From Eucommia ulmoides (lineage: Eukaryota > Streptophyta > Magnoliopsida > Garryales > Eucommiaceae): DNA of 64,000 bases. The position numbers and the translations under genes were made by a program. Under the pieces are notes generated by a model. The model was not told the DNA's origin and did no database searches. It worked only from the letters and a program-made list of their open reading frames with translations. This document shows, piece after piece, positions 2,161 to 61,174 of the stretch (position 1 is the first letter of the stretch; each line of letters opens with the position of its first letter). The stretch lies in NCBI GenBank assembly GCA_016647705.1, contig CM028326.1, positions 2,976,001 to 3,040,000 of the forward strand, written 5' to 3'.

Positions 2161-2164
2161 CAAG

Positions 2165-6160: not shown

Positions 6161-6169
6161 TAATACAAG

Positions 6170-7258: not shown

Positions 7259-8748
7259 TGGTAGTGCGTGAATACGCTGCTACTTACACTCGCAAGTATA
7301 CGAGGTCAAAGTTTTAGAATAGTGGATCGATTAAGATCGAGTATCGTGTCCACAGGGAAAGTGTGAATAATTGAGTACCGCAATTTACGTAGTCTTATAT
7401 TATCCTGACGATTCAATTTAATATTTAAATTAAACTAATTAAAACTACTCCTAAGGATTAATTCTAATTACACTAATTAACTAGGGATTGATTTCATTCA
7501 CTTAGTACCTATTTGGCTTAGTTTAGTTATCAATAACGGTTATTATCACATCCAACAATCTCGGTATCTATAACTCACTCGCTTTCTCTTCCGAATAAAA
7601 AGCGAGCGAATACATGACTTCGCGTTGACGCCGAAGTCTCCCTCGAATACCTTTCCGAACACATAGCCACATGAGTCTTGACCCAACCTCACGAATTGCA
7701 CACTCTCCAACTCCCTCTCGGGTTATTGGATCGTCGCGTTGTGTTTAAACTTAGTCCGAATCCAGGGTTACCTCTTCCGAGTGTCAAACCACCTATTCTC
7801 GGTTTATCGTAACAAGCATAATAGACGTGAAATAATGGTAAACACAATTGGAATTAGATAACAAACCATAAAAATTAACTTATATTCAACCAAAAAGGTA
7901 TTTACATGAATTACATCTAACCCTAGCTAATATCTAACTAAACTAACGCAATCTTGGCTATTGAAACATTAAACCAAGAGAAAATCATCATTTACAATAA
8001 ATCATTAAGTACAAAGATAGAAACAATGAAAGAAAGATCAAATCTTAAAGTGGAGTGGTCCACTTTCGCCAAAGAACGATTCTCCTGAGCTTCCTCTTCT
8101 CCATTGATGAACTTCCTTTTTTAGCTCTTCAAGAATTGGCCAAAATCACTTCCTAAAACTAATCTAATCTACTCCTAAATTATCTTAGGTGTAAGGGGTC
8201 TCCAAGCATCCTTTAAGAATTGGGTGAGAAAAGGTTTTACGTAAAGGTTTTGAAAATATCTCAGAAAATATCTAAAAAATATATTTCTGTGCAGAGTGTC
8301 ACCGCCTAGGCGGAGGTTAAGTCGGTTTGCTTTCTGCCTAGGCGATGGGCTGGCACAAAACATTCTGACTATTTTTCGCCTAGGCGGTGGTTTTTTTTGC
8401 CTAGGCGGTGAAGCAACTCTCAACTTTCTGACGGTTCTCCGCCTAGGTAGTGGTTCCTTCGGCTAGGCGGTGAAGCAGCTCTCAACTTTCTGACGATTCT
8501 CCGCCTAGGTGGTGGTTCTTGTTCATTTTTCAGCACATCCTCAGCATTCTCACCGTCGCGACGGTGACTTTTGTGATATTGAAATCTTGTTTCTTCAATG
8601 TTTTCCCATCGTTTTCGCTCGTTTATCAGTTGTTTACATCCCTACACCTGAATTAACTAAAAACAAACTAAAACGTAATTAAATATAAATAAAACACTCA
8701 AAAACTCCAAATTTGGTTTAAAAGTAGATATGTATTTTACACCTATCA
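7259..8748. mobile_element. Solo-LTR-like fossil, copy 1 (1,490 bp)
   Basis: The unit begins TGGTAGTGCGTGAATACGC and ends TTTTACACCTATCA, so it has TG...CA ends. The flanks CCCCT and TCTCT are a decayed 5-bp duplication, differing at two C/T positions. A second copy at 40408-42112 shares both ends, the 'tatacgaggtc...tccacaggga' block and the palindrome cluster. It has no coding region, so it is best read as a solo LTR or a coding-free LTR element of an LTR retrotransposon family; Gypsy versus Copia cannot be decided. It interrupts the LINE zinc-knuckle region. The worn duplication suggests it is older than copy 2. Confidence 0.8.
8300..8515. repeat. Cluster of CCGCCTAGGCGG palindromes inside LTR copy 1
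   Basis: Seven occurrences of the core GCCTAGGCGG or near variants lie within about 215 bp, often followed by TGG or TGAAG. The perfect form CCGCCTAGGCGG is its own reverse complement. A 'ctctcaactttctgacg-ttctccgcctagg' block of about 60 bp is repeated twice (about 8410-8460 and 8475-8520). The cluster is also present in copy 2 (41619-41890). Confidence 0.9.
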
Positions 8749-8753
8749 TCTCT

Positions 8754-9709
8754 CATAACTTCAAATTTATCATCTGGTCTATAGTTCACAAAAGTCTTGT
8801 TACTAATGCCTTTAGAGCTATTAGGAACAAAGACATGTCTCATATTTGTCAAAGATGTAATCGAAGTATTGGGGATATTGGTCATGTAATTAGAGCTTGT
8901 CCTAAACCTTGGAATATTTGGAATCAAGTGGTTTGGAACCATTTCAGCAAGTACAATGATGCTTCGGATATTTGGGGATGGATCAAATCCAATATGAAAG
9001 GGAGTTTTCCGAATAATAATTTTTTTTTCTGTTCGTTGCAATCATTTGGGAAATTTAGAAAGATATGAATAATGAGGTTATTAATCGTAAAAACAATTCC
9101 CCAAGCTGTGTTCTTTGGTATATTGCAAACTACGTTAAATATCTCAGGAAAACCTTTCTTGGGCCAAATTTCTTAAATGGGAATTTAAATCCACGTACTA
9201 ATTGGTTCTCACCCCCTGCAGATTATCTGAAGCTGAACGCAGATGGTAGTGCTAGGGGTAATCTTGGGAAAGGCGGTGTTGGAGGAATTTTGAGGGACAA
9301 CCAAGGTGTCTGGAAGATGGGATACTTCGGCAGCCTTGAAAGCTGCACGCTGCTTGAAGCTGAGTTGAAAAGCCTTACCACGGGGATCAAGCTTGTGGCT
9401 GGGAGAAATTTCCCACGTGGGTTGGTGGAGACAGACTCTGCTGAAGCTGTGGATCTTGTGCTCAATATGTGCTCGGACAACCATCGCTATAAGGACTGGA
9501 TAACTGAATGCTAACGGGCCCTCCTCATTAATGATTATAAGTTGCAATTCGCCTCAAGAGAGGCGAATAGATATGTAGATGCACTGACTAAGAAGGGAGT
9601 AGAGGAGCAATGTACGCTCAAGATCCTAGAGTCCCCCATCACTGAGATTGAAAATCTGATCATTGAGGAAATGGACCACCGGATGTCGAATTCAAGCCTG
9701 TCCATCTAG
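8754..9709 (+). pseudogene. LINE ORF2 remnant: zinc knuckle and RNase H
   Basis: The zinc-knuckle part reads NFKFIIWSIVHKSLVTN, then CQRCNRSIGDIGHVIRACP (Cys-Cys-His-Cys spacing of zf-RVT). RNase H follows: LKLNADGSARGNLGKGGVGG (first Asp), LLEAELKSL (Glu), LVETDSAEAV (second Asp) and a degraded last block around NRYVDALTKKG. It ends at TAG 9707-9709, followed by a T-rich 3' UTR and an A-tract. A TAA at about 9512 breaks the RNase H part. Confidence 0.85.
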
Positions 9710-25538: not shown

Positions 25539-28500
25539 TTAAATTTCTGAGAATGAGTTGACTGTCTTGAATCCATGATTCTCAGGAAGAGGAGCATTTC
25601 CTGTCCTAACAGAAATAACCACCTCCAAACCTGTCAAACACAATCCAAGGATCAAATATCAGAAGTTATATATATACACATATACAGACACACACACACA
25701 CACATATATATATATCATCAGATATTTCATGGCGGTTACCTGCAGTCTTTGCGGCTATGGCTTCTTGCAACACGTCGGTTACAAATAAAATCTGGGAAGG
25801 ATTATCCACTCCAACTGCCTGGAAAATTTCAATGTAACTGCTTGTTTCCTTCTTGTTTCTGTAATATTATAAGAACGGCACGATTTCATTTTCTTTTAAA
25901 AAATAAACATATATATAAATAAATAAAAGGCTACTAGGATATTGTCAATTATTTAACTTACCCGACTGCTGTGTCAAAAAAACCACATAAATACTTTCTC
26001 AAGTCCCCGTATTTCGTGTTACCAAAAATGAGCCTCTGCGCCAACCTGCTGCCGCTGGAATATATGTACACCTGTAGGTTAAATAAGCAGATGACACGAT
26101 AAATTCGATGCACTTTTCATGAAAATATGTATATATATATATATACAGAAAAACTCCCCAAAAAATAAATAATAAAAATAAATGACATTTCAACATATAT
26201 ATTTAAAAAAAAAAAAAAAAGGAGGTACCTTGATGCCTAGAGCGTGCCATTTTTCAAGAGCTTCGGGCACATCATCGAAAACTTCCCCCTCTAATTCATT
26301 ATTGAGAAATCCAGTGCGCCATATGTGCCCCTGAATGCATGCAAAAAAAAATTTCAGATTTTTTTTCCATGTGTTCATTTGTAATTCCAATTCCATGAAA
26401 CCAAACACTACCTTACGGAAAACAATTTTATTTTTTATTTTTTTGGCTTACTTGTAATTGCTTCAAAGCTGTGATCTTCCTATCAGCTTTAATCATTGCC
26501 TCAACATTAGCAACCAAAGCAGCAATTACTTCTTCTTTTCCAGCATCATCAGAAGGGATGGGCACAGCCCCGACAATCCCATGTTCTAAATCAACCTCCA
26601 CCTGCAAGAAGACGCAAATGAGAGACCAAGCGAGAGAGAGAGACGCAAATGAGAGAGAGAGAATGAACTCTTTTAGAAGCAATTTCAAGAGTAAAAAGGC
26701 TTTACTTGAGAGCGCAACAACTTGATATCATCTTGGGTTTCGGCAGTGTCATATGTTGCCTCCAGATGCCGCCTCACATTATTACGAGCATATGGAAAGA
26801 GGACAGTGGTCACAAACGATATAGGAGTAGTTGTCCCTTCGATGTCCAGAACAATGCACCGCTGCTCCACATTTTCAACAAATCAAATCGGGCTAATGCA
26901 ATATATATTTACACACACAAACACACACTTACACGGTGCCTAAAGCCACATATTTTAATTCAATATATTCCTCTTGAATATCGTATAGTTAATTCAAATG
27001 TACTAGGACTTTTTTGCCATAACCCCAAATTTTGCAAACTTACTATTAATCTAATCCACTTGATACAATAATTTTTTTAGAAGTTCAATAATTTTGTCAA
27101 AAGTCCAAAGTCACTCCACATCATAAAAGTTACTGTAATTTTCTATATGGAAAAATTACAAGGACTTTCATATAGTAAAGTAAGTTTGAACATTTGAAAA
27201 AATTATCGTATCATGCAGACTGCATGGGCAAAATTTTTTTAGTTGTGCACTGTTCACCAAAAACCCCATATATTAATTATGAAAAGAGATTTTGTTGAGA
27301 GTTTCTTACTTAGTTTCTCAACAAAATCTAAATTAACGGTTGAAAATGTCTTCAACCATTCAATAGTTAAAAAATGTCTCGAATGTAAATGTCTTATTTA
27401 TAGGATAGAATAGTATATAACCTTGCTTAAAGCACTAATTTAATTCAATGCGTTAATTTTGAATATCTTGTAGTTAGTTGAAATACATTAATCATGAAAA
27501 GTTATTTTGTTGAGAGTTTAGTATTTAGTTTCTCAACAAAATCTAAATCAACGGTTAAAAATGTCTCGAATCATCTAATGGTTGAAAATCTCTCAAATAT
27601 AAAACATGTCTTTTGATTTATAATATAGATATATGTATGTATATACATACACACACACACACGAGAAATAGCATTATAACTCTCAAACGAGAAATTCGAG
27701 CAAAAGAGAGAATATTTACACATGACGGCTCGCTATGATTTTCTGAAGTATGAGGTGCAGCTTCCACTGACATGTTTGTATTCCGAATGCCACCTAAAAC
27801 TCCACGGATGGGACCGTGAGTTGGGGTCGACCAATCCACGCCCAATTGTCGGAGTTTAATTGCAGCATCAAATAGATAATGATAACATTCCGCCTACAAC
27901 ACAAATTTTCAAGCATAACTTCTTTTAAAAAAAAAATTGCAGGTAAAAACGATAAGAAATGGAAGGGAAGTCCTTTGCATAAAAGATTCAAAGAGTAAGC
28001 AAGGCATAATATGACAAGGAGTAGGAGTAAGGTTAAGGTTTACACCATCTTTAAGGTAAAACCCATGTTAAATATCATTTTTCCCATTGCATGTCAATTT
28101 GCAGATATTGCGTGTTCCATTGTGTTGGGTTTATCCCACATCGGATGTGAAGGGGCTAATAGTCAGGTTGTAAGCATAAAGGAAAACCTCACCTCATGAG
28201 CTATTTTTTAAAGTTGAGAGAGGCCAAGACCACCCCTACACTAGTATCAAAACTCAAATTAGAACAATTCTAACTCAATAGCCACAAAAGGAGAAACCAG
28301 TAGAGAGTTAGCCGACCAGAGACCCGATTTATAAGCGGGAGATTGTTGAATTTATCCCAGATCATATGTGGAAGGGGCTAGTGGTCAGGTTATAAGTGTG
28401 AGGGAAAGCCTCACCTCATGATCTAACTTTTAGAATGAGAGAGGCCAAACACCATCCCATACATTGCATGACTACTGAAATCATCTCTCTCTTTAAATAT

Positions 28501-35301: not shown

Positions 35302-36685
35302 GCAGTTATTAACTTGTAACTAATTTTAATTATATGTAACTAATATTTACTATAATATGGATTTACTCACTAAACTTTCTCTACTTTCCACACGCAAGGC
35401 GTGAGCACAAGACTAATCTACTTCAATTTAAAGAGACGATTGATGTTTTGGACCAATTTCGAAATACCCATTATGCCCTTGCAAACTAAAGCCTTCAACC
35501 ATCACTCTTGCAGACATAATACACGTGTGCCATTACCCTTCACTAACAACATAACCAAAATCAACCGTCACCAACTCACGCCAAAAGTCGCTAACCTCTA
35601 CCACAACCCCAAAATCAACTTCATCGCTCTTCTTCCTCCAACTTCCACTGAGATCAGTGCAGCGTACATTCAATAGCATCGCTTCCATAACACAAAATCT
35701 GCCACAGTTTGCCGACATTGACTGGGAAACAAGGGTGACTTCGTCTCTACCTCCTCATTTCCCTTGCGACTTTCCCTAACGTATCACATGCTTTCTGAAT
35801 TTAGTATATACTACATGACCAGTATTACTCAAACATGGTTTGTACAACCATGTTTTACAAACCATCTATTTCTGCGTGTTACTCAAACATGGTTTGTACA
35901 GATAAAGGATGCAGGAGGAGTAAATAAAAATTACGGCCATTTTGAGTATTTCGCTGTTGAAAGTAGAGGCGGTGGCAAATTTCAATTCCCTGTTTTAAGG
36001 TAGGTAATTATTTTTTTGCATTTGTTTTCACTTTTTTTTAGTACAAATTTACATAGTTTCTTTTATGATTTCAGTGTCCACGGTCTTTTTCCATTACAAT
36101 TGAAGAGTACGGAATACAAGCGCCAAGTATTGTTGTTCCTGCCAAAGAACAATAGGTCAGCTTATTTCATTTAACCTCAAGTTTATTGGATTCCTTATAT
36201 TGCATTTTAAAAAATCCCTTTCAATTTTTATTTTTTTGGTCTAGAAAAGCATCGCCCCTATGAAGTCTCACTTTTGTTTTTGAACAAGTACCATGGTCTA
36301 CTTGTGCTCCATTTGTTGATGGGTTGAGTCAAAAGAATATTTTGTTAAGGTCAAAAGGGCATATATATACCTTACAAAATGGAACAGCCTAAAGCAACTA
36401 ACGACTTACATATGACGATGGTTATTGCTTGAAAATTTCACATACTTGCCAAATTCATTTTTTAAAAATTTTGAAAAAAAAAATGCATTTTTACTTTTTT
36501 GCCTTTTTCCTCTAAAATAAATTTATACGAGGTTCTTTGTGGAACAGGATATAGGCCAGCTGGTTATGCTCTTTTTCTAGTGGTTTATGCTGGATTAGAA
36601 GTAGCCATTGCTTCATGTTTTTGTCTTGTTCAAGGTTTTAGATATTGATAGGAAATGCATCAAACTAACTCTGAATTGATGAAAT
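35302..36685 (+). other. Spacer with two exon-like remnants of an unrecognised gene
   Basis: After a CAG at 35899, 'ataaaggatgcaggagga' opens a frame reading IKDAGGVNKNYGHFEYFAVE and ending before a GTAGGT donor at about 36000. A second block after TTTCAG (about 36075) reads VHGLFPLQLKSTEYKRQV up to 'aacaatag-gtcagc' (36156). The two join in phase, as real exons would. I cannot name the family. The rest is AT-rich. A 'tcaaacatggtttgtaca' phrase is repeated at 35830 and 35884. Confidence 0.4.
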
Positions 36686-37060
36686 TTTGCATACTGGGAA
36701 AACAGTATCAGCGCCTGGAATATGCCTTCTAGCTCAGTTATCAGGTGCCAAACTCATGGCCACTACTTTATACAAGGGTTCTGGGCGTTTTGGTGGCCTT
36801 TATGCGCCAAGTTTGATGATTGGTGCTGCCGTGCGTGCTGTTTTCGGGGGTTTAGCTGGAGAACTAATTAATTCTGCCATTCCAGGATATACTGTTGTTG
36901 CTAAGCCACAGGCTTATACCCTGGTAGGGTTTCTATTTTCCAACAGGTTATTGGATGTTTAAGTTGTCTCTCCATTTCTGAATGCAAAATTTGGTCATTT
37001 TGTAGGTTGGGATGACTGCTACTTTGGCTTCGGTTTGTTCTGTGCCTCTGACTTCAGTCT
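36686..37060 (+). pseudogene. CLC-f-type chloride channel pseudogene, piece A
   Basis: The translation reads HTGKTVSAPGICLLAQLSG, then SGRFGGLYAPSLMIGAAV (the conserved CLC 'GxGGLYAPSL' region), LINSAIPG, KPQAYTLVG, a short intron, and VGMTATLASVCSVPLTSVL. This tracks Arabidopsis CLC-f, a plant CLC of the Golgi. Conserved positions are altered (for example CKGSGLVGG became YKGSGRFGG). The upstream two-thirds of the channel is absent and the downstream exons are displaced to 39418, so it is dead. Confidence 0.8.
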
Positions 37061-37530: not shown

Positions 37531-39345
37531 AGCAGGCAATGTATGAAACTGGTGCGGGGTTTCATCTTTTTTTCCTGATGTTTATTTTGCAGAGGGCTGC
37601 GATTTATGTGCTTTTTCCGGTTCAAGATGTGGTGGATGACACAGAGAATGGGCCCTTCCGGTGAAGACATACTCTTTGAAACTCAATTTTTGATCGTCAA
37701 AGGACGTCTGATTATTTTCCCTCCCTATTGACCTCTTTGATAACTATAAATCCCCCTATTTGCAAAAAAACATACATGCATGTATATAATAAAATAACAT
37801 TATACATGTCCCATGTCCCAAAACTTGTAGTCTAATGAATATGTATCTAATCTCCCTTGTGAATATGTATCAGTTGAAAGACATTTGCAGGCCTTCTGTC
37901 ATCATGATCGAAAGAAGGTATATTACATCAACCTTCGCAAAATTCACTAATTTTAATATGAATGTGAGTCATGATCTTATGAAGTGTGTTTCTTTTCTTG
38001 TTCATTGTTTAGATGCCAGACATGTTGAACTGCTTTGGATGGTGCACATGGGACGCTTTCTACACGGATGTTACCTCCGAGGGAGACAAACAAGGATTGG
38101 AAAGGTAATAGACATCTACACTACACCAAGGTCGACCATGAGAAACTAGAGACGCTAAGCAAAATTTCGAAACAGGTCCATCAATGTCTAAATATTTTTT
38201 ACTAATAATTCTTTCAAAAAGTTAATTTTTTTTTTTTTTAAAATATGATAGTTGACATAGTGATTGAACAAAAATCGAGACTATATTTTTTTTTTTTTTA
38301 ATTTGACATGATATTAGTAAAAAAAAAAAAAATTGAAAAAAAAAAGACAAAGGTCAATTTGAAGGAGACCCACCACCTAGGCAACTGCGTTGGTAGCCTT
38401 GCCTCAGGGCTGGCCTTGCACTACCCCCAACATTCTTATACTTTGAACAAGACTTAATTGGTTGATTATAGCATGATTGGAAGGTATTAACTTGTGTGTT
38501 ACCTTATTTTTTGTAGTTTGGAGAAATGCGGGATACCTCTGAAGTTTGTTATCATAGATGATGGATGCCAATCGGGTCGGTATGGATCCAATCAGTGTTG
38601 AATCCAAAGCTGATAACACGGCAAAGTCAACACTTTAAATTATTTTTTTTAACAATGTTAAAACCGTGAAATTTAGTTTCCTTGTCTAACAATTAATGGT
38701 CAATTTTGTGTTTGTTTTCAACTTCGCCAACAGGTTAACTCATATAAAAGAGAACCACAAATTTCATAAAGAGGGAAAAGAAGGCCACAGGGTAGAGGAT
38801 CCAGCAATGGGACTTCGCCACATTGTTACTAAAATCAAAGATAAACACGCTCTGCAGTACGATTTCACTTGTTCATTTTAAACTGCATCTTTTTAGTCTG
38901 CAATGCACTTATCCCATACGAATATATCTATAGGTATGTCTATGTGTGGCACGCAATAACTGGCTACTGGGGAGGCGTAAGGCTTGGGGTTTCTGAAATG
39001 GAACACTTTGAATCCAAGTTGGCTTATCCCATTTCTTCTCCTAGGGTTAAGTTAAATGAACCTTGTGATGCTTTGGATAGCATTACTACCAACGGTCTAG
39101 GCCTTGTGAACCCTGAAAAAGTTTTTAACTTCTACAATGAACTGCACTCCTACCTTGCTTCTGCTGGTATTAATGGGGTCAAAGTCGATGTTCAGAACAT
39201 CCTTCAAACACTTGGAATTGGCCATGGCGGAAGAGTGAGACTTGCTAGAAAATATCATCAGGCATTAGAGGCATCTATTTCCAGAAACTTTCCTCATAAT
39301 GGGATTATTTCATGCATGAGTCACAACACCAACAGTTTGTATAGG
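37152..39345 (+). pseudogene. Raffinose synthase-like (GH36) pseudogene, with introns, truncated
   Basis: Exon-like blocks: 37152-37317 (SAGESFINGAFIGVRSDQIG), 37593-37709 ([19 protein letters not shown]), 38013-38104 ([20 protein letters not shown]), 38516-38601 (CGIPLKFVIIDDGCQSG), 38733-38862, and 38935-39345 ([11 protein letters not shown], then [10 protein letters not shown] with the GH36 nucleophile Asp). Order and intron phases follow plant raffinose synthase (galactinol-sucrose galactosyltransferase). The usual DDGWQS is DDGCQS and is followed by a stop. The N-terminal start and the C-terminal third are missing. Introns are kept, so this is a duplicated genomic fragment and not a retrocopy. 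It lies between two CLC-f pieces. Confidence 0.85.
37446..37524. repeat. (TTC)n followed by a long T-tract
   Basis: About 9 TTC units followed by more than 40 T residues inside an intron of the raffinose-synthase remnant. Confidence 0.95.
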
Positions 39346-39417
39346 TAAAAAAGGTTGTTAATGTTTCAACACTCCTTGAATTAGAATTGTTAATTCTGTG
39401 TTTTTATTTTCAGGCAA

Positions 39418-47663: not shown

Positions 47664-49525
47664 TTGTCTGCTATTATTGTAGTAATTTTGAGTAAAAATA
47701 TTTTACAAAGTCTCTCCTCCTCTATTAGTATATGTTTTGCGCAATATGATTTTATTTTGACATTTACATTTTACTATTACTATTACATCAACATGGACAT
47801 AGTAGGAGAAATTTCGAAAGACCATAATAGACTATACATACCAATCAATGATTTTCGCCCATATGAGAAAGAGTGGACGTTAAAAGTTACTGTCCTAAGA
47901 ACTAGTACTGAAGAAATGTACTCAACCACCAGAGGGACGGACAATGGACGAACATGTAAGTTATGTAACTCAATTTTATTTTATTTTACTAAATAGTTAA
48001 CACATTTAACACTTCAACCTATACATCCATAAACAATTCAAACTCATTTTTCCTACTTTTCTTATGATTTTTGAGTTTAAAATACATAAATGTATACATA
48101 CATTGCACTATATATATATATATATATATCAACACTTACATACCCTATATATTACATACCCTATATATTTTAGTCAAAAGAAAACAATTACATTTATTAA
48201 CACAACAAGTACATGGTACGAGAATAGAAGCTGTCTTGTTCAATGACGCAGTTGATAAGTTTGAAAACTCATTGCTGAAAGGAACTACATACTGCATAAC
48301 AAATGGATTAGTGAAATCAACAAATCCAAGGTACATCATATCATACCGTGACTTTGAGATTACGTTAACAAATATTACATGCATAACAGATAGAAGAATG
48401 GAAAAAATCATTCAACTTAATCTAACTTATCAATATAATATTCAGGTGTGCTATCCTTATCCACATTAACGGTCACAACTGTTCAGATTAATCCAAAATC
48501 ATCGAAATTTGACATTGCAAATTCATGATATATACCACAATTTACATACTATTTTTCTTGCTTCTATATCATAAGTCTTTAATAATAATTTAATGAATTT
48601 AACACTTATTATTAACACACATATAAAATACATTTTTAACTTCATGTGTAGGACTACTGAGACAATAGATAAGGATGAAGTACAAAAGAAAATGCGCCAG
48701 AAAAAATCGACAATTCGGAACAAACTTAAATCACTGATATCGTAACGCGCCCATTGACTTTCATTATTATACTATTACTATTTAGGATTTTTTAATTAGA
48801 CACCCACTTTTAAACTTGATATTTGTATGGGTCCTAATAAACAAGTCCAAACAATTTAAAACCCAATGAATTATTTTTATTTTGAGAAAACCCTAACTTT
48901 AGACACAAACTACCTCACGCGCGACTACGATTTGATCTTCCTGCATAGGTATTTTTAGAAACTACCATCAAGCTAAACAAGAAAAAATCAAGCAATTTAT
49001 GAAAATGGAAGACCGACCATCTTCCTCCATCCAAATTGGGTAGCGCCATTGCCTTTTGTCCGACTTCGCCGCCGGCATAAAGGTTCAAAATCGCCGAACA
49101 ATTGTGTTTTGGTAGCTCCAGCCTTGTTTGTCATTGACTGCTTTGCTTCTTTAGCAATTATTGAATGATGTTTTTATTGAATTGGAAATATATGCTGCTT
49201 TTCATCTCCATTTTTATACCTGCATTCGATGATTATACATTAGGTTTTCTCTTTGAGGTTTCTTCTTCAATAGGATTTGGGAGAATTGATTCCTTTATGG
49301 TTTTCTAGGGTTTTTAGCTGCCTTTGTGTGTATCTAGCATTCATTCTTTTTTTGTAGAATGATGTACTCCCGCTCGATCGTCAACCACCGTCTGCTGCTT
49401 AGGGTTTGGTTCTTCTGGGCGCTAAACCAGAGCCAAGGGGGGGAGGAGTGAGGAGAGATAAAAATCTAATTCTCCCTAAATCCTCGATTGCTATGTGAAA
49501 TTCTATACAAGGTCTTCCGGAAAAA

Positions 49526-50738
49526 ATGCCTACTATAACGAAGCCATACGGTGTGCAGAAAGCCACTCAGCACAACACCAAAGACGATTGTTGGGTCGTC
49601 ATCGATGGCAAGGTCTTCGTCTTTTCCTTCACGCGCTAACTTTTTCAATTCTATCTTAATGTTAGTTTGTTCATGTCATATACAACACTGATTTTAGTTT
49701 GAGTTTGAATTTTTTTTCCCGGATTATGAAATGCAATACCTAGATGCATTTTCTATTTGTGGATCTGTTTTCTGTTGATCTTCATACTTATCTCGGTGTA
49801 TTATTGAGGGTGAGGATGGGCATTGGTTCTACTTCTAAATCTTGGTTCTACTTCTAAATCTTGTTCATGTGATTGTAGTAATTGGTATGAATGGGTGTTA
49901 ATGGAAGTTCTCCTTTTGGTGTGCATTGGACAATATGGTGTTCTTTTGTGATGTTCATCTGTGAAAGCAGACAGGAAAAGATTGGTTTATCTGAATGGCA
50001 TGCATCCTTGAGAATAGTTGATGCCGGTATAGGCTTCTTATGAACTATTGTTAGGGAACTTGGCCAAAAAAAAAAAAAAAACTCCATGACATGCCAAGAA
50101 GAATAAAGGTCCTACTGCTAAGTGAGATATTTTTCCTCTGAATTTGATGGTTCCAACTTGTCGAACTGAATCTTTACCTTAGAGTAAGGAGACGAGTGAT
50201 TAGAAATGACGATTTCAACATTTTTGCTAGTAAAAAAATTGGGATCTTGGTGAATAGTTCACAAATTTAAATTTTTTTCTCATGCTGTTCGTAGTAATTT
50301 TTTATGAAGTCTAAAGTCATTGTAATTTTACCATGTAAAGACTTGCGGTAATTTGCGTGCAATGACTTTGGGACTTTTGACAAACTTATTGAACTTCTAA
50401 AAAAATTTGGGTATCAAGTGGTTTAAGATGAATATTGAGGTGCAAAACTTGGGATTATGACGAAAAAGCCCTAAAAAATGCACACACTAAACATTTGAAC
50501 ATTGTAAACTTACACGCCTTACTATTTCTCTTGTTTTTTCATTGCTTGTTTCTTGAAAGATATGCATTTTGCTTTTGTATTTTAACTTGCCATATATTTT
50601 TTTCCTCTCTGTTTTTCTCAACCCATGCAGAATGCTCACTATGCGAACAATTTCAGACATGTAAATCATTTTCGCTTTTATACTCCAGGTGTACGATGTT
50701 TCTGCTTACTTGGACAAACACCCAGGTGGAGATGATGT
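49526..50738 (+). pseudogene. Captured cytochrome b5 gene fragment
   Basis: Exon 1 (49526-49612) starts at ATG and encodes [20 protein letters not shown] followed by DCWVVIDGK. Exon 2 begins at 50689 after CAG and encodes VYDVSAYLDKHPGGDDV, stopping at 50738. The two join at the GK|VYDV junction known for plant cytochrome b5, so the intron (1,076 bp) came along. HPGG holds the first haem-ligand His; the second His and the C-terminal membrane anchor were not captured. The parent would be an ER haem protein giving electrons to desaturases and hydroxylases. Few changes are seen, so capture looks fairly recent. A MITE sits in the intron (about 50250-50405). Confidence 0.85.
50225..50410. repeat. 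MITE (ggtgaatagttcacaaat family) in the captured intron
   Basis: It begins TTGGTGAATAGTTCACAAAT and has the inner 'taaagtcattgtaattttac' and inverted 'gtgcaatgactttgggac' blocks. It matches 27060-27268 and 59020-59585. Confidence 0.65.
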
Positions 50739-50749
50739 ATGATTGGGTG

Positions 50750-50875
50750 AATATTGATGTACATTAACTATTTTGTAATATTACTGTACATTAACTATTT
50801 GTAATTGAGTGAATATTCTTGTACATTAACCATTTTGTAAATATTGATGTACATTAACTATTTTAGAGGTATAAA
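50750..50875. repeat. Short tandem repeat, TGTACATTAACTATTTTGTAA
   Basis: Four imperfect copies at 25-37 bp spacing directly after the cytochrome b5 fragment, likely filler formed at the capture junction. Confidence 0.7.
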
Positions 50876-51645
50876 AATTATTGCACAGTAAATTTCCGTT
50901 ACAACCATGGAAAACTTTGCCTTACTCATATGAGATATTTCATGCATGTTTATTTGTACAGAACAAGAAATACACCGACATGAAAGGTATTAATCATGAA
51001 CTACATCCACCCTAAAATTACTCATATCAAATAAATTTATAAATAAGTAAACCATTATATCAAAAATTATATCAAAAACAACATAACAAAAGTTCGAACA
51101 AATGATCCCCGTGAAATGAAGCTTTTCTTAACAACTGAAAAAACAAGAAAGAAAACATATTGTCGCCCGACTAATCAAACTCAACTGCCTTATGCATAAA
51201 ATGTATCAAAGACCCAACTACCATGTTTGTCATTTATTATGTCCTTAATAAGATCCATCCTTTCGATAATTGCTATCCCGTCATTGCCTGTACGCTTGAT
51301 GTTCGCTCGTTGCCTTATTATGTACATAACAATTACTCCACAATCAAAAGTTACGTAGATTGCATCTATATTATTTGCCCCTTGCTTGCTTATGTGCTAC
51401 TGGATCATTGTTGTTTTTCGTATGTCGCTCATGCCGATCATCGAATGCACCCGCCATTACCTGAGAAACAGAAAACAATTCAGTAGAAAAACAAACGATA
51501 ACTTTGTATGTGATTGTTCATGTATTCAAGTTTCACAAATGCATTAAGAAAAACTTCATCAGTTTACATATATTTAGTTAATCAACCGTCTTATTGCAAA
51601 ATAATATAGTTATATCAGATTTTTGCATCGTTAATCTCAAGAACT

Positions 51646-52890
51646 GTGATTTTTACTGCACATTAAATATCTTAACAACCCAAATATCACCACCGACACG
51701 GAAAACAAATTGAATATGTAAAAACACGTATCGAAAATATGATTTTTGCTACGCATTAACAATCCTAATAAACTAATGGTCAACAATGAAAATAGGGAGA
51801 TGGAAATTCAAAAATCCAAGACACCATTTTTTGTGATTTTTACTACACATTAAATATCTTAACAACCCAATCATCACCACCAACACGGAAACTAAATTGA
51901 ATATGTAAGAACACAAATCGAAGATGTAATTTTTGCTACGCATTAACAATCCTAATAAACCAATTGTCAACGATGAAATTAGGGAGATGGAAATTCAAAA
52001 ATCCAAGACCATTTTGTGATTTTCACTACACATTAAATATCTTAACAACTAAAACATCACCACCGACACGGAACCAAATTGAAATGTAAGAACACGAATT
52101 GAAGATGTGATTTTTGATACGCATTAACAATCCTAATAAACCAATCGTCAACGATGAAAATAGGGAGATGGAAATTCAAAAATCGAATACACCAATTTGT
52201 GATTTTTATTGCACATTAAATATCTTAACAACCCAAACATCACCACCAAAACGGAACCAAAGTAAAATATAAGAACACAAATGAAAAATGTGAATTTTGC
52301 TACGCATTAACAATCTTAATAAACCAATCGTCAACGATGAAAATAGGGAGATGGAAATTCAAAAATCCAATACACTATTTTGTGATTTTTATTGCACATT
52401 AAGTATCTTAACAACCAAAACATCACCACCGACACGGAACCAAATTGAAATGTAAGAACACGAATAAAAAATATGAATTTTGCTACGCATTAACAATCCT
52501 AATAAACCAATCGTCAACGATGAAAATAGGGAGATGAAAATTCAAAAATTCAAGACACTAATTTGTGATTTTTACTACATATTAAATATCTTAACAACTT
52601 AAACATCACCACCGAAACGAAACCAAAGTGAAATATAAGAACACGAATAAAAAATGTGAATTTTGCTACGCATTAACAATCGTAATAAACCAATCGTCAA
52701 CGATGAAAATAAGGAGATGAAAATTCAAAAATTCAAGACACCAATTTGTGATATTTACTGCACATTAAATATCTTAACAACCCAAACATCACCACCGACA
52801 CGGAAACCAAATTAAATATGTAAGAACACGAATTGAAGATGTGATTTTTGTTATGCATTAACAATCTTAATAAACCAATCGTCAATGATG
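51646..52890. repeat. Tandem array, seven copies of a ~183-bp unit
   Basis: Units start (GTGATTTTTACT...) at 51646, 51833, 52016, 52199, 52382, 52565 and 52748, so spacing is 187 once and then 183 five times. The last copy is partial. Conserved inner blocks are 'cattaaatatcttaacaac', 'catcaccaccgacacgg', 'gctacgcattaacaatc' and 'cgtcaacgatgaaaatagg'. Units are about 85-92% alike by eye. No unit keeps an open frame. It lies wholly inside the Pack-MULE. Confidence 0.95.
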
Positions 52891-54718
52891 AAATACTCAT
52901 TAAATCAAACATCAACGAGGAAAAGAGAAAGAAGAACGACAATCAAGATGGAAAATTGAATGTGTAATGTACAGTTATAATTTTTCTGCAAACACCCAAT
53001 TCAACTCTTGAGAATGAACAAACTCATATCAATGTTCAATTTTTGCACATCAATCAACAAACCTCCCATCGAAATTTGAGTTTTTCACAGCAATAATTAA
53101 ACCATAAACTCAATATATGATCATCAGTGCACAGTGGTCGCGAATTCATAAACCCTAAATCCAAAAAAAGTTGTGGAGAGACGAAGCAACAAATTGTCAT
53201 TGACCACCGAAAAACCCAAGATTTTGTTTTGAAAAATAGCTTGTGAAAACAGATTCTTGGTTTAATATTAATGTGGTGTAATATTTGATACATACCGGCG
53301 ATGAATCTTACGGTGACGGTGTGAGGAAACGTCGGCGATGGCGTCTGCAATGGGAAACGACGCTTCCTGTTGCAGCGTCACGAGCGAGACGCTACGAATG
53401 TAATAGCCAATTGCGCTGGGATGGACGGATGATGGCAACTGGCACTGGACGGCGATGGCTTCGACTGAACGACGCCGGTAATGGACGGCGACGGCAACGG
53501 CGAATAAAATGAATGGCGACGACGGCCTGGACTGGATGGAGACGACAATTGCAATTGAATTATTGTTGTGGAATAAAAATTAGGGCTTCAAATGGATGCC
53601 TTCCAATTTGGGGAGAATGAAGAACAGTGCACAACTTGCTGCGAAAAGGAAAATGGTAGTTTCTAATTGTTGATTTTCCAATTTTTATTGAGATTTCCCC
53701 CTAATATTACCTTCCATATCAAGAGGGCTTTCACGCGCATCTACCCCTAGGTGAAGACCACGGCTGCAACATGGGTTTCATATTAATCATATATTATTAT
53801 TGGAGAAAACTCTAATATATGGATGGGCCTTGGGGCCCATATTAAAAAACCCTACTATTTATCATATTTATTACACATCAACACCCAACCATCACACAAA
53901 TAACTAAAACGTTAAAAATGACAGAAGTCAATTTGTTACTTCAAAGCAACAATATTCAACATTGACAATATGGATCAAATCTGGTACAACTCTTGCAAGA
54001 GATACAACAAAAAAATAATTGTGAAAGACGACTCTGTTGAATGCATCAAATGCTCCGTACGAAATACCGAATACTGTCCAAGGTAACAACTGGTTACATA
54101 ATAAACCAACATATTAGCTTTATCATAACTTGAAAAATTCAATGTTTAAAAAAAAATTAAGGCATTTTAAAAAACAAGTACATGATGAAACTTACTGTTG
54201 GTTATGGAAAAGAAAATATTAGTGTCACTTTATTTGATACAACAAAGAAGTTGATCGGTTGTCTAATATCAAAATACATTGAAGAACAGAAAAAGGTAAG
54301 CAACCACAACAAAACATTTACCTTTTCTAAATCATTAATACTATTGATATTACCAATCGATCTATAATTCACTTCCAGGAGGGACTATACAATAAGTTCT
54401 ACAAATGAATGATACATCGGTTTGGCGAAAGTTACATCTTCTTCACAAGGATAAACCAGATGAATGACAAAGAACGCTTAGCATCAAAATTGATTGTGCA
54501 TGATGTATGGAAATTTGAAGCAACTGCATGCAATCATACAAGTCTCGAAGACAATCCCGTCATTCAAATAAACTAAACGGCTACTTTTGATGTAATTATA
54601 TTTACATACAATACACAACTACAATAACTACTACAGTTTCCATTTTAATATCCTCGGACCTTTGATGATCCAAAATTGCACCGATTTTCCTATTCTTTCC
54701 ATGCGATTCGATTAGGTT

Positions 54719-54991
54719 TTGTCTCATAATTATTTATTCTTCTCATCATTGAATGTGAAAGAAATTCTCTTGACACCTCCTACCTTCATCAATGTTAAAT
54801 TACGGTCAGTTTCCTCTCTGGCAATCTATGACTTGGACGAAGCGAAGAAGAAAATCCCCGTCGAACCATCGTCGCCATCTTGCGGCGTAGGATTTTGCAA
54901 TTTTGGAAGACGACAGTTGATAGGAGGTTTAGGGACAGCTTTGCTCTCACTACAGCCTTCGAATGCTTCAGACATGAATCCTAAAGTTTGA
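54719..54991 (+). pseudogene. Captured fragment of an unidentified host gene (plastid-type leader)
   Basis: The frame reads RSVSSLAIYDLDEAKKKIPV, then CGVGFCNFGRRQLIGGLGTA and LLSLQPSNASD before it loses sense. A twin-Arg followed by a Gly/Leu-rich hydrophobic run and a small-residue end resembles a thylakoid-lumen targeting signal. It lies between the RPA70 remnant and the Helitron 3' end, where Helitrons often carry captured exons. The parent gene is not recognised. Confidence 0.45.
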
Positions 54992-55504
54992 CCAAAATCA
55001 CAATACATTGAAAATTTTCTAACCAAGAAGATTTGACACTTTGTATCATTGAAGTTTGACCAAAATCTCACTTTGGGTCCCCATGATTTCAATTAGATTG
55101 AGCAAATCCCTTCTTCAAAAAAAAGAACATAGAGGGTCATATTTTCATAGGAGTCTTTTGCTGTCTAAGGATCTGTCAACTAACCCCTATGTCCTCATAT
55201 ACGCACATCAAGTTTTTTTAGCAAATACTATAAATGGCTCTTTAGCGAGCTTTTTATGTGTAATTAAATTTTTTATTCTAACAAAATTTATGTGAAAAAA
55301 AAAAAAAACTTAATTTACCAAACTCACATAAATAAATGGCATCTCAACCATAATAAATAAATAAATAAATAAATATATATATATATATATATATATTATA
55401 GTATTTGGTATATATGTAATTATTATATACTTGACAAATATATGATTGTGGGTCTTAAGTTATGGTATATATTTTGCAGGTGGAAAACATAATATTATAG
55501 CATT

Positions 55505-55534
55505 TCACGTGCAACGCACGTGCATACCCACTAG
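55505..55534 (+). other. Helitron 3' terminal hairpin and CTAG end
   Basis: CACGTGC, loop AAC, GCACGTG, a short spacer, then CTAG and a host T. This is the canonical replication-termination structure of Helitrons. Confidence 0.8.
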
Positions 55535-55806: not shown

Positions 55807-58800
55807 ATGCTAAGACAAATTCTACTCATACCTCGAGTCATACTTAAGCAGTTCGTCGAGCCCGCCCTCGATAGCGGCTTTCGTCAAGTGTACCGCGTTT
55901 ATGAACTTTCCGCAAAGCTCGTCATATCGCCGTTAATTCTAGCCAACGACATCGCCGGCTCAGCTCCGCGCGGTTTCGGCGTGCCGGAGTTCATCTCCAA
56001 TCTCTCATTCTCTACAATATTCGTGAGTTTTTGTGCAGCATCATCCCATTTCATTCTGCGTATTTGTAATTAGGCGTTTGTTTAAGTGGGTTACCATTTT
56101 TTGTTCAATTGATTACTGGGTTTTGTTTGAATATGCAATTGGATTGCGACGCCAAGAATATTGGTTGAATTTTTACTTAGATTGAGTGGGGCTATTTGAA
56201 TGGTTTGTTTGGTATGAACCTGCTTGTTCATAGGATGAATTTGGTTGTCGTTGTTTCAATATTCTGGCCATAACTTCCAAATTTTGTTGCATTGGTGTTT
56301 GATGACCTAATCTGATGAACAAATTGGCATTTACCTTCTGATTGGAATCATTCTGGTATGATATAATTGAGTTAAGTTAGGAAGAACACTAAAGTAAATT
56401 GATTCAAAGATGATGGATTCATGTGTTTATTTGCTGATTGCAGGTAGTTGCTACTCTTGGGAGTTGTGATATAGCATTAGATATAGGGAAGAAGGTGCTA
56501 TGTCAGAGGTGCTATTCTGTGTTTCAGCTCTTGCATATGATTTCTTTCATTGTCACTATATGTTGGTTGTGTGTTTTGCATCATCTGTAAAATGGTCCGT
56601 AAAATACATTGCTGCTCACTTGATAGCACGCCCCTTGGACCGTGAATCTTTAAGCTTAAGAACTCTAAGGGCATGTTTCATAACACTGAAAATTAAGGGC
56701 TGAATTTTAAGTTCTGAAATTATAAATGCTGAAAATATTAAGTATTTATTTTTTAATATTTTTATTTATTTTTTAAAAAAAATCTTTGTACAAGTTTTTT
56801 GTCCCTGCAGTATCAGTCAGTCTTAAATGCAGAAGTGTGTTATCAAACGAGCCCCAAATCTTTCTAATATTTGATATCAACATGGCAGCGGATAAATTAT
56901 ACCTATTTCCCGTTCCTGAATTTTGTATGTCTTGGAGTGTGGAGAAGGGTTTCGATTTATAGAAAGGATTTGCAAATTTTCCTTGAGCAAATTTCTTAAG
57001 AAAAAGTTATAATTCCCTTTTAAAAATCATTTTCCTTCTTCAAATTCTTCATCCTAAACACTCTCTTAAACTAAGAGTTTAGAGCATCTTTATGTGGTTG
57101 TATTCTGAATTGGAAGTTTGGTGGTAAATTGACTATTCTTGTGATCTGTTTGGTTGTGGTATTTGAAGAAGGTAATTCATTTTGATATGAAATTTTGAAG
57201 ATTTTTCTTTGGTGTGTTTGGATAAGGGATTTGAAAGAGGGATTTCATTTGGGGAAGGCATTTCTGAAATTTCTCCATTAAAATCCTTTGTTTGGCTACC
57301 CTTAAAAGGGATTTGTAAAATTTCTAAGGATTTGAAAATGGAATTTAAAGGGCCTAAATGACAATTTTAAATCCTTCCAAAACAAATGTTTTTTGCAAAT
57401 CCATTGAAATCGGGATTTGCCCTCAGCTTCTCATCTCTCTTGAAAGAATGTTTTTTTCCTTCTTAATTTGAATGATTTATTTATTCCTCCCCCCCCCAAA
57501 AAAAAAAAAAATATGAGATAAGAGTCAAATTTCTCATCCAAGCAAAGAATTTATAAATGATGGGATTTGGAATTCTGAATTTTAAAATCCCTTACCCAAA
57601 CACACCTTTAAGAATTTTTATTTAAGAAAAAAATACAAATCCATTCTCAAAATGAAATACATTCTTCAAATACCTCACCCAAGCGCACCTTTGTTGTTTA
57701 ACTTCCGTTTGTTCAGTAAAAACAATGAAAATTGGGTTGTTTGGCTGAATTAAATTTCTCAAACTTCAAAAAATTGCAGGGACTGTCGGACCTGCAATGG
57801 ATGGCAAGCATTGCAGTGTACAATGTGCAAAGGTTCTGGGAAGGTGCACTACCAAGTTAAAAATTACATCTTGAGAAGGTCGGTAACAATTAATTTGTAC
57901 TTTTGGTTGAGATTTAATTACCAATTAATTTCCCTCGAATTAGCCACCGTTATATCCAACTAAAGGATATTTTTCTTAGTTCGTTTCATTGGTATAACTG
58001 CATCATCTCTGCAAAGAAAACACAAGCTTATGGCAGTTTGGTTGGATAGAATCAAGGTGGAATGGAATCAAAATTCCACTGCTAATTTCCATTCTCTCGC
58101 TTGGCTATATAATGTAATGGATTTTTTTGATTTTATTGGGATCAAAAGTGGAGGAATGGCATTCTTTACTTCAAGTAGTGGAGTGACACTCATTCCATCC
58201 GATATTTTTTTTTTCCTACTTTGTAAATAAGGAAAAATAAAAATACAATTCGAAATAGAAAAAATTGTTGAAAGATAAAAATTTAGAAATATAATTTTTA
58301 GAGAGAGAGAGAGAGTAGTAGATAAACTGATTGTAAATTCAAAGAGAGAGAATTTGTCTAGATATAAAGTTCTGAGAGAAAAATATATTAGAACTAAAAT
58401 TCCAATACTTTGAACCAAACATTCCGTTTTTGCAATTCAACCCTAGTTAGTCTCAATAAAATATTATTTTTCTCTGTTTTTCTTGTAGGCGCCACATCCT
58501 ACGTATATTAAAATGGTACGTTTTTCGTTTTTCTTTTTCTCACAAATCCATCCATGTGCAGAGGAGAAAAGGCAACAGCCGAAAGTATTGCAGATGCCAT
58601 TGCTGAGAACCGGGCTGAGTTGGTGCACCTTCCTTCTGCCATGGATCTTCATGTTCCATTACCATCTAAGGATTGCCCGACTTGCGATGGAACTGTGAGT
58701 GTTTTACTGTGATAAAATTTGTGACTTCTCAAAATTTCTTCCTGCGCATTCTGTTAAGGTTATTTGTATTAATATTGCAGGGTGCGATGAAATGTCCTGA

Positions 58801-61174
58801 ATGCAGAGGCGAGTTGCAACTCAGCATTTCTGCTGATGATGTTAGTACCATGTAAATTTACTTTGGATTGTTTTTATATATTTCTGCTCATTCTTTTCAT
58901 TTTCCTAGATCATGGAGCCTCCTTGGAAAGTATATAATGTCTTGAGAAAGATGGACTACCCTTACGAGGTCAGTTTGTTGTTCCTTTTTCCTTTTCTATT
59001 CATATATACAAGTAATACTAATTTGGTGAATAGTTCACAAATTTAAAATTTTAGCTCATGCATTCCACACAATACAGTAATTTCTTTGGAAGCCCAAAGT
59101 CCACTACATGAGAAGCCCTGTAATTCTGTACTACATGAAAATCAGTGCAAAATATTATAGTGATTTTTCATGTAATACAAAATTACTGGACTTCTCACGA
59201 AGTTAGTCTAGCGAGTGGATTGGGTAAATAGTGGACCTAGAAATTTGGCACCCTAAATCCTAAATAATTTGAAGTTTTTAGTCCTTCTTGAGTTATAATA
59301 TTGCATGGATACGAGTAACAGAAAATTGGTGAATAGTCTACAAATTTAAAATTTTAGTCCATGTAGTCTACACGCTACAATAGTTTTTTTGGAAGTCCTA
59401 ATTCCACTACATGAAAATTACAACAATATTTTGCAATGTTTTTCATGTAGCGTAGTGACTTTGGAATTCTAACAAAATTACTGGACTTCTCACAAAATTA
59501 TCGTAGTTAGTGGGTTGGGCCACAAAATTTGGCTCCTTAAACCCTAAATTCTAAATAATTTATTTTTTAAGTTCTTTTTTATTTATAAAATCGCATGCCC
59601 CGTTTATTGTTTTTGTGTCTTCTAGCGTATACACTGTAACAAGTATTGGTGTTATCGATCTTTAATTATGGTCAAGCTTGTTTCGGATTTCAGCATATCG
59701 TTGACAGCATGAGAGATCCCAGTATAGCTGCCTTTTGGCTGATAACGATGCCTCAGATTCTTGGAGGATTCGAGTTTGATGATCATGTCAAGCAGAGAAT
59801 TTGGTGGCAATATAAGGTCTATAATTATTCCATCTGCATTACGGTAGTCCTGGGTTTCATGGGATTGGATGTCCGGAATTGGAATTAGAAATGAACAATC
59901 CGAGGCTTCAATTCTGTGCCACCAAACACTACCTATCTGTTTTCTCGACTATACCAGGTATAATGTATTATACCTATCTGTATAGCTTTGTAATTAGCCT
60001 TATTCTTTGGTAGTATAGGAATCAATGCGGTATGATCAACTCCGCGATGAGGTAGCAAAGAGAGAACCCGGATGGGAATACTTGCAACAAGTAAGATAAT
60101 CAGAAGCACAATCTTGTTGTCCTTTTTTTTTTAAAAAAAATAAAAATAAACCGCTTGGTCAAATAATCAGAAAAGATCTTGACTACTGTATTTGTCGTTC
60201 TTCAGGGCCTAATCTCTCTAGATCCTGTTCGTGCGAGGGATGATCCTGTTGTTGTTAAAAACGTCCCTCTCTACAAGGCAAAGAAGGCTCTGGAGGCACA
60301 AGTTTTGAGGCTTGATCCTCCGCCACGGCCGCAAAATTGGGGGGTAAATTTTATTTTTTTTAGAAAAATCTTGCAGCATGTTAAATCCCACATCGATGTC
60401 GGACCCATCCCCCGATATCCATTCGTAGTAGTTTGTCAAAAGTTTGCCCTGCGCGAATCCCACATTGCTTGTGTTACCTAATCATGAGCTATATATAAAG
60501 CTTAAGGCAATCCTTATCTTACAAGACATCTTGTAAGAGTGAGTTAAGCCCATTGGATTTCTACACATCAGTCTAAATAATCAAGATTTCATCTTTAATC
60601 ACAACAAAATCTAATGATCTTTATGAATAAAAGGAGATTTGTCATCTGTAAATGTGATTCAGGAACTAAATCTACCTCTGGATGCATCTTGTTGGAGCGA
60701 GGAGGACCTCAAAGATCCCAAAAAGCTATACGAGATGACGGTTCTTCTCAACGCTCAGAGAGAGATTGCTGATAAAATATTAGACGCGCAGTGGGAAACC
60801 AAATGGCGTCAAGAAAAGGTCACCCATTTCGATCCAATCGGCTCTTAATCTGTTTTTCTTCTGATTTTTGAATTTGAAAACTGGGTAATGTAGTTTATAT
60901 ATAATTTTTGGGTTGTTTTCAGGTGAACAAAATGATGGAAGAGAAACTCCGGCCATACTTGCAGAACATCGATGATGATGGAGTTCTTCCTCGTCCTATA
61001 ATCATACCGCCCCCCAGCAATCAGGATAATCAAATGGTCTCTCTCCCTCTCTCTATATATTTAAACACGATATGGAAAAATTGCAGTTTTCTTTTGATAT
61101 GTAGAGCAACTTTTGACCGGACTCTCTGTCTCTCTTAGGTAAAGCGACGGCGACGGCGGTGGTGGTTTTTTTGA
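55807..61174 (+). CDS. Plant DnaJ-type zinc-finger protein of unknown function, 423 aa
   Basis: Exons: 55807-56022, 56444-56508, 57780-57878, 58562-58694, 58781-58840, 58909-58968, 59694-59816, 60019-60090, 60206-60343, 60663-60818, 60923-61036, 61139-61174. All are GT-AG and the frame is open. Two CxxC pairs form a DnaJ-like zinc finger: Cys96-x2-Cys99 and Cys107-x2-Cys110 with KGSG, then Cys165-x2-Cys168 and Cys176-x2-Cys179, the last two pairs being CPTCDGTGAMKCPEC. The N-terminus (MLRQILLIPRVILKQF) is basic and amphipathic, as in organelle presequences. The C-terminal half is helical, conserved-looking (WETKWRQEKV) and ends KRRRRRWWFF. There is no J domain, so it belongs with BSD2-like chaperone/assembly factors by fold only. 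Target and organelle are inference. The ATG is 272 bp after the Helitron end. Confidence 0.85.
56666..56862. repeat. hAT-like MITE in intron 2
   Basis: GGGCATGTTTCATAACACTG at the left is answered by the inverse of GGGGCTCGTTTGATAACACA at the right, the common 'TTTGATAACA' hAT-MITE end. The interior is AT-rich. Confidence 0.65.
57142..57690. repeat. MITE in intron 2, outer element of a nested pair
   Basis: The left 'gatctgtttggttgtggta-tttgaagaa' and right (inverse of 'ggtgcgcttgggtgaggtatttgaagaa') are inverted, with the match continuing into 'attcattttga'. The inner element 57211-57606 splits it. Confidence 0.6.
57211..57606. repeat. MITE inserted into another MITE
   Basis: It starts GGTGTGTTTGGATAAGGGAT and ends with the inverse of GGTGTGTTTGGGTAAGGGAT. 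TTT precedes and follows it. It is non-coding, with a C-tract/A-tract at 57489-57512. Confidence 0.65.
58030..58425. repeat. MITE-like element in intron 3
   Basis: 'Ggcagtttggttggatag' at the left and the inverse of 'ggaatgtttggttcaaagt' at the right, with GA-rich and AT-rich interior. The ends are worn. Confidence 0.5.
59020..59585. repeat. Two tandem MITE copies (ggtgaatagttcacaaat family) in intron 6
   Basis: Copies start at about 59022 and 59319. Both contain 'ggtgaatagt', 'aaatttaaaattttag-tcatg', 'ccactacatga' and an inverted arm 'tcatgtagta-caaaattactgg', so each can fold into a long hairpin. Other family members are at 27060 and 50225. Confidence 0.7.
60379..60570 (+). mobile_element. 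Short solo-LTR-like (TRIM-type) fossil in intron 9
   Basis: It starts TGTTAAATCCCACATCGATG, the typical opening of small plant TRIM LTRs, has a TATA-like 'gagctatatataaagctt' and ends near 'ctacacatca'. It is non-coding; no target duplication was recognised. A short old fossil. Confidence 0.55.

Follow-up and report, generated by a model that had tools for sequence, protein, structure and literature searches.

The window analyzed here is a 64,000-nucleotide stretch of the Eucommia ulmoides genome (contig CM028326.1; C2 2976001-3040000 in the 946.7-Mb assembly of 391 contigs that was searched for relatives). At 48785-53852 it contains a transposon that carries the 5′ part of a cytochrome b5 (b5) gene and arrays of tandem repeats. 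An initial annotation, made from the letters alone, had described this as a Pack-MULE, a Mutator-like element (MULE) with captured gene pieces, lying in a Helitron that bears an RPA70 gene. Comparison with the rest of the genome bears out that outline and extends it: the element holds a second capture, from an HSP20-domain gene, and five more b5-bearing copies of it were found elsewhere in the genome. The locus is very probably explained by a non-autonomous MULE with short terminal inverted repeats (TIRs) and HSP20 and b5 cargo, which was amplified, inserted into an RPA70-bearing Helitron-type repeat, and then decayed (coordinates in Table 1).

Ends of the element and its sibling copies

As the initial annotation had reported, the element is bracketed by exact TACTATTTA repeats and has inverted ends; these (GGATTTTTTAAT on the left and, on the minus strand, GGGTTTTTTAAT on the right) agree at 11 of 12 positions. 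Further in, agreement falls to 14/20, 17/30, and 26/50, and comparison of the 400-base ends showed no sub-terminal likeness (best local score 16; shuffles reached up to 21). A scan for exact 9-bp repeats (9-mers of at least three different letters) bracketing inverted ends of 12 bp that differ at no more than one position, spaced 0.3-12 kb apart, returned this locus as the only one in the window, and the same structure occurred in 0 of 30 first-order Markov windows. The longest stop-to-stop frame within the element is 111 aa. A Pfam scan covering the two minus-strand frames of the right arm found no family; the element also has two plus-strand frames, 111 and 103 aa long. There were no Rfam families at gathering score and no tRNA genes. 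Adjoining the right end, at 53825-53845, is a TGGGCC/GGCCCA pair, which resembles plant site II promoter elements.

Searching the genome with 49500-50760 yielded 43 matches: the window, four long copies, a b5 gene on C9, a copy on C7, a copy on C13, and 33 rows of a dispersed repeat. Three long copies (C59, C2:14.24M, and C2:28.9M) are 93-94% identical to the query and the fourth (C14) is likewise over the first 1,021 bases; the C9 gene is 85-87% identical. The composite is found at six loci (the window, these four, and C13), which share their left end but differ in what flanks it; in all five siblings the left arm runs without a break through the HSP20 piece into the start of b5. Flanking duplications match at 9/9 positions in the window and C13, 10/10 in C14, 8/9 in C59, and 8/10 in C2:28.9M (by eye); that of C2:14.24M lies inside poly-T and is unreadable. 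As in MULEs generally, defined ends recur at unrelated insertion sites. Copy counts are lower bounds: 40 of 417 candidates were scored for the left end, and the right-arm search gave at least 76 rows with 40 of 289 candidates scored. The family also includes a b5-less copy at C1:11.2 Mb (3.35 kb, no frame longer than 110 aa). Two forms of the right arm occur: the arm at 52894-53852 is of one type in the window, C13, and C14, and those of C59, C2:14.24M, and C2:28.9M match it only over about the last 50 bases. The existence of two types suggests arm exchange between subfamilies.

Insertion into a Helitron-type repeat

The sequence to the right of the insertion recurs in the genome in at least 42 matches (40 of 67 candidates scored; best other match 95%). 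In all three of the best host relatives (C12, C6, and C1) the sequence reads ...ATACTATTACTATTTATCATATTT... with a single TACTATTTA and no insert. The empty site that the initial annotation had suggested looking for in relatives is found within the same genome, and the 9-bp duplication falls within the 8-11 bp that MULEs make on insertion. Taken together, siblings elsewhere and three empty host sites prove that the window copy was inserted, with duplication of 9 bp, into a Helitron-type repeat bearing an RPA70-like gene.

One could instead suppose that a true b5 gene was cut short by a transposon insertion or by misassembly, and that the brackets are coincidental. That the b5 start codon, splice sites, and frame are intact as far as they are present would fit, but the host repeat is uninterrupted in the three empty relatives, five siblings carry the left arm, the HSP20 piece, and the start of b5 without a gap, and a complete b5 gene exists elsewhere (C9). 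We give this explanation practically no chance. The initial annotation had itself raised misassembly of a full b5 locus or unreal 9-bp repeats; both are very unlikely given the sibling copies and empty sites.

The initial placement inside an RPA-bearing Helitron likewise stands, with the host taken as a Helitron-type repeat, on the RPA70-like left flank and on a 3′ end with a hairpin and CTAG. On the left, homology to RPA70 was found in PDB (1jmc, E 1.3e-6) with an exon model that was joined by hand and lies partly in a second frame; one unedited open reading frame (ORF) matched DUF223 (4.3e-4) and an OB-fold (7.1e-4), both below Pfam cut-offs. The right half (53925-54576) was negative for RPA70 identity in Pfam and PDB, so database support for RPA is confined to the left half. 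Helitrons end in a 3′ hairpin about 10 bp before CTRR and insert before T; here a 7-bp stem is followed by CTAGT at 55531, an arrangement seen at 2 sites in 50 Markov windows. The host sequence from 53862 to 55534 is matched nearly whole at C6 (93%) and C12 (91%). A pattern search for the Helitron 5′ end (TC between A and T) gave nothing convincing, and no RepHel was found among the subset of ORFs given to Pfam. The window host copy lacks about 70 bp immediately left of the insertion (48760-48784 side) that the three relatives fetched keep, and in these the stretch holds an apparent exon end and a GT donor. The element would then lie in an intron of the RPA70-like gene; this copy of the gene was already damaged.

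Two captured gene pieces and their candidate donors

The exon-intron-exon b5 fragment of the initial annotation is confirmed: exon 1 is followed by a GT..AG intron and a partial exon 2, and the resulting 46-aa peptide matches Pfam Cyt-b5 at E 5.7e-15. The closest candidate for the parent that the annotation expected in the same genome is the C9 gene, which has three exons, an intact frame of 130 codons, a hydrophobic tail at the end, and a Pfam Cyt-b5 match at E 5.2e-30. It is the closest intron-bearing b5 gene among 43 candidates, all 43 scored; other b5 genes are 38-54% identical. With siblings, empty sites, and this donor, the description of a MULE carrying a captured b5 5′ end holds. The element resembles C9 from 49367 on, but a C7 retrocopy only from 49397 on, about 30 bp further downstream. 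That C7 copy (C7:27348133-27348749; L014 2134-2750) is a processed b5 retrocopy with exons 1-3 joined, one in-frame TAG, and a poly-A tract, and it likely marks the mRNA ends of the C9 parent.

The initial annotation took the capture to extend over the start codon and first haem ligand, and this needs correction. In C59, C2:14.24M, and C2:28.9M the piece continues over the whole of exon 2 and intron 2 and into exon 3, of which it includes 73 bp (72 in C2:28.9M) before transposon sequence resumes, and both haem histidines are kept. Because siblings continue beyond 50738, the break in the window reflects decay and not capture, and we reject 50738 as a capture boundary. The window copy is 610-615 bp shorter than these siblings, with ATGT at both edges of the deletion, and has lost the rest of the captured sequence, from within exon 2 through intron 2 to the exon 3 piece. 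Other copies decayed by different internal deletions: the exon 3 piece is present in four siblings and complete exon 2 in three, C14 having the former without exon 2, and in C13 a deletion of 49601-50930 removed most of the b5 piece.

The second capture, at 49068-49369, is 90% identical to C11:309437-309737, where an HSP20-domain gene has its first coding exon and the DNA upstream of it; a tandem paralogue of the C11 gene matches 49068-49296 at 84%. The next exon of the C11 donor matches Pfam HSP20 at 8.2e-8 in the unedited frame and at 5.4e-8 with exons joined by guess. We take its protein to be RTM2-like. In the element the HSP20 piece is antisense and meets the b5 piece at 49367-49373, with CTC common to both, so that two captured 5′ ends stand head-to-head over one stretch of promoter-side DNA. 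Two b5-less relatives, at C8:4.46 Mb (L042) and C13:27.5 Mb (L043), match the HSP20 exon as far as 49154-49159 and are different from there on; a third, at C8:4.54 Mb, matches the same HSP20 range. Since b5-less relatives carry the HSP20 exon, they suggest, without proving it, that the HSP20 piece was captured before b5.

Coding state of the copies

In the window the b5 frame runs for 46 codons and then meets TGA. The initial annotation had thought a chimeric transcript possible; a chimeric protein from this copy is rejected, the stop lying directly after the joint, and this copy would make no functional b5, at most a 46-residue stub.

It could be argued that, in one copy or more, the captured b5 nonetheless serves as a functioning new gene. 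The candidate is C2:14.24M, which would make a soluble b5 of 89 residues with a 14-residue transposon tail, perhaps driven by bidirectional HSP20 upstream DNA. Its frame is open for 89 codons (75 from b5 and 14 from the transposon, then a stop), all four intron ends are GT/AG, both haem histidines (HPGG, GHS) align with those of a solved b5, and the anchorless product matches Pfam Cyt-b5 at 7.1e-28 over profile positions 2-69 of 74. An apparent TAG in its alignment row is the acceptor CTCTAG, the row beginning upstream of exon 2. Yet the remaining copies do not share this condition: the intron 1 acceptor has changed from AG to AA in C59 and C2:28.9M, C2:28.9M is also frameshifted in exon 3, C14 has lost exon 2, b5 is mostly gone in C13, and the window copy is truncated. 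One open frame in six copies fits what neutral decay would leave. The Nei-Gojobori (NG86) comparison of C2:14.24M with the donor over 75 codons (dN 0.034, dS 0.117) includes the donor's own constraint and is uninformative on selection. A working b5 gene is decidedly improbable.

Alternatively, the copies might act mainly through small interfering RNAs (siRNAs) from read-through transcription that lower expression of the C9 b5 and C11 HSP20 genes. In maize, gene-carrying Helitrons, Pack-MULEs, and Sireviruses are described in a review as siRNA reservoirs acting on donors (PMC13317346). Here, the copies differ from the donor by 0.11-0.13 (Kimura two-parameter distance, K2P), at which few perfect 21-24-nt matches are expected, and this explanation is rather unlikely.

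Divergence and order of events

The five long copies, the window included, differ from one another by K2P distances of 0.036-0.051 and from the donor by 0.109-0.127, and 82 of 1,115 alignment columns set all five apart from the donor. A tree built from the captured piece has a star-like shape and weak support (0.09-0.87). Plant substitution rates are 6.5e-9 to 1.3e-8 per site and year. At these rates the burst would date to some 1.4-3.9 My ago and the capture to no more than 4-10 My ago; these are rough figures, which methylation would inflate.

A mechanism can be sketched around these events. The HSP20 piece would have been captured first and afterwards the b5 piece, which reaches from a little ahead of the mRNA start to within exon 3, possibly through gap repair or template switching at short homologies such as the CTC at the joint. 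An autonomous relative would have supplied transposase in trans.

Several points weigh against the reading of the locus as an amplified and decayed short-TIR MULE. First, the TIRs are only 12 bp. Second, one sibling lacks a readable target-site duplication (TSD) and two have imperfect ones. Third, the C13 remnant is as distant from the other copies (0.072-0.097) as from the donor (0.106), over few sites (202-231). Fourth, identity to the C9 and C11 genes is 83-90%, and the true donors could be lost paralogues of both. Finally, no transposase-bearing relative was found among the frames looked at. Seven relatives were fetched in search of one (C51 twice, C10, C89, C6, C8, and C13:27.5M) and all seven were aligned by BLAST. 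Five have frames of at least 150 aa (L043 and L045 have none). Pfam was run on five such frames, taken from two of the loci, and returned weak reverse-transcriptase or RNase H matches or nothing; the remainder looked retrotransposon- or LRR-like by eye.

The locus is useful because one genome holds the candidate donors, the joint between the pieces, amplified copies, three different internal deletions, an empty target site, and a donor retrocopy; with so complete a record of capture, a good part of the succession of events can be reconstructed. A further lesson is that the point where a fragment seems to stop in any one copy may not be the boundary of capture. A nearly whole b5 haem domain, without the membrane anchor, is still open in C2:14.24M.

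Tandem arrays

The 183-bp array occurs in all six copies (6.8 units in the window, 8.8 in C59, 5.2 in the first block of C2:14.24M, 5.8 in C2:28.9M, 3.9 in C14, and 6.8 in C13) and so belongs to the transposon family, not to the window locus alone. The initial annotation had singled out the nesting of captured gene, array, and Helitron in one locus: all are present, but the array is family-wide.

Such arrays invite the idea of a VANDAL-type MULE whose arrays are bound by an anti-silencing protein like VANC; according to PMC5735166, VANC recognizes motifs that lie in one orientation within arrays. Short ends and changing array copy number (3.9-8.8) agree with this, as does the motif RCATTAA, with a forward:reverse ratio of 18:2 in the element against 11:8 in the rest of the window, a bias in the same direction in six of six copies, and 5:0 in the b5-less C1 relative. 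However, RCATTAA was picked after the arrays had been inspected, and an unbiased k-mer ranking placed other words first; most of its copies arise by duplication of one array, the ratio in the element outside the 183-bp array being 5:2; and none of the six elements contains the VANC21 motif YAGTATTAY, whose 7 occurrences in the window all lie outside the element. The RCATTAA arrays resemble VANC targets in form only, and a VANDAL-type element is quite unlikely.

A more ambitious proposal would join these threads into a transposon-built cassette: the HSP20 upstream DNA would fire both ways, C2:14.24M would express an anchorless soluble b5 core, and the RCATTAA arrays would dock a family-specific transposase or anti-silencing protein. 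We consider it highly improbable; if true, it would mean a VANC-like system outside Arabidopsis VANDALs.

Other features of the window

Beyond the element, the window's gene content includes dynamin, VQ motif, CLC channel, raffinose synthase, and long interspersed nuclear element (LINE) reverse transcriptase sequences. The raffinose synthase exon is at 38845-39348 (Pfam 5.9e-58) and the CLC channel exon at 36675-36962 (1.2e-7); 2135-9514 is a decayed LINE-like stretch with an RVT_1 match (6.8e-25) for 2963-4063. Downstream of the Helitron-type repeat, 57754-57870 is an AtTam37-type zinc-finger exon of an ordinary gene (Pfam 1.6e-16). A dispersed repeat of about 250 bp occurs, whole or in part, at four places: 50222-50473, 27004-27285 (minus), 59023-59061, and 59326-59355.

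Table 1. Coordinates of the transposon, its cargo, and its host repeat within the window.
Feature	Coordinates	Strand	Details
Non-autonomous MULE (short-TIR Pack-MULE)	48785..53852	+	5,068 bp; TSD, inverted ends, five b5-bearing siblings sharing left end
Left TSD TACTATTTA	48776..48784	.	single in 3/3 empty sites fetched
Right TSD TACTATTTA	53853..53861	.	exact match to left 9 bp
Left TIR GGATTTTTTAAT	48785..48796	+	11/12 vs right end
Right TIR, reads GGGTTTTTTAAT on minus	53841..53852	-	11/12 vs left end
Left terminal region	48785..49000	+	at least 38 of 40 genome matches listed, window's own included
Right arm of MULE family	53052..53852	+	best other copy 94% among 40 of 289 candidates scored
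Captured HSP20-domain gene 5′ end	49068..49369	-	opening 22 codons, running leftwards from ATG 49134, plus sequence upstream of ATG
Captured b5 5′ part	49367..50738	+	~30 bp upstream of inferred mRNA start, 5′ untranslated region, exon 1, intron 1, start of exon 2
b5 exon 1	49526..49612	+	29 codons; phase-0 intron follows
Dispersed repeat within b5 intron 1	50222..50473	+	33/43 rows of b5 search; also in donor intron
b5 exon 2, truncated	50689..50738	+	frame ends at once, GTA TGA
ATGT microhomology at internal deletion	50735..50738	+	610-615 bp present here in C59, C2:14.24M, C2:28.9M
Short array	50735..50870	+	4 units of AATATTNNTGTACATTAACTATTT type
183-bp tandem array	51645..52893	+	6.8 copies; every unit made of two diverged halves
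Host RPA70-like exons, DNA-binding domain A region	47793..48466	+	PDB, Pfam; hand-joined model
Host zinc-finger/C-terminal RPA70-like exons, read by eye	53925..54576	+	DNA repeated genome-wide
Host Helitron-like 3′ end	55506..55534	+	hairpin CACGTGC-AAC-GCACGTG, 8 bases, CTAG then T

Comparison with known systems

By the features examined, the element is a Pack-MULE with short ends: it has no transposase frame and carries fragments of non-transposon genes with donors on C9 and C11. MULEs of the TIR kind have long, similar TIRs of 100-500 bp (PMC3903597); since the ends here are similar over 12 bp alone, and beyond that no better than shuffles, the TIR-MULE form is excluded. In the one open library searched, no paper combined a Pack-MULE with cytochrome b5, and a single paper naming both a Pack-MULE and a bidirectional promoter was irrelevant, judging from the opening of its abstract. 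The kind of element is known; the instance is new.

Pack-MULEs have been defined for rice and maize (PMC4858842, PMC3903597), and the former gives 5-10% of MULE-derived putative genes as having at least two parents. The present element resembles the rice and maize Pack-MULEs in being a non-autonomous MULE with an 8-11-bp TSD, gene fragments with identifiable donors, and cargo from two donors, but differs in its imperfect 12-bp TIRs, internal tandem arrays, and head-to-head captured 5′ ends. Its host can be set beside the Mothra-type RPA-bearing Helitrons without RepHel (PMC4683698): it shares RPA-like exons, a GC-rich hairpin 8 bases before a CTAG end, and the lack of any helicase noticed in the frames scanned, and it is unlike them in that its 5′ end was not found by pattern search and its RPA gene is damaged. 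The non-TIR MULEs (VANDAL and KIU/Ulp1 MULEs; PMC6446971, PMC13317346, and PMC5735166) differ in that the element here lacks the VANC21 motif and has b5 and HSP20 as cargo, and in that its family yielded no transposase, VANC, or Ulp1 gene (no search was aimed at the last two); with them it shares short or degenerate ends, a 9-bp TSD, internal arrays of variable copy number, and captured host sequence.

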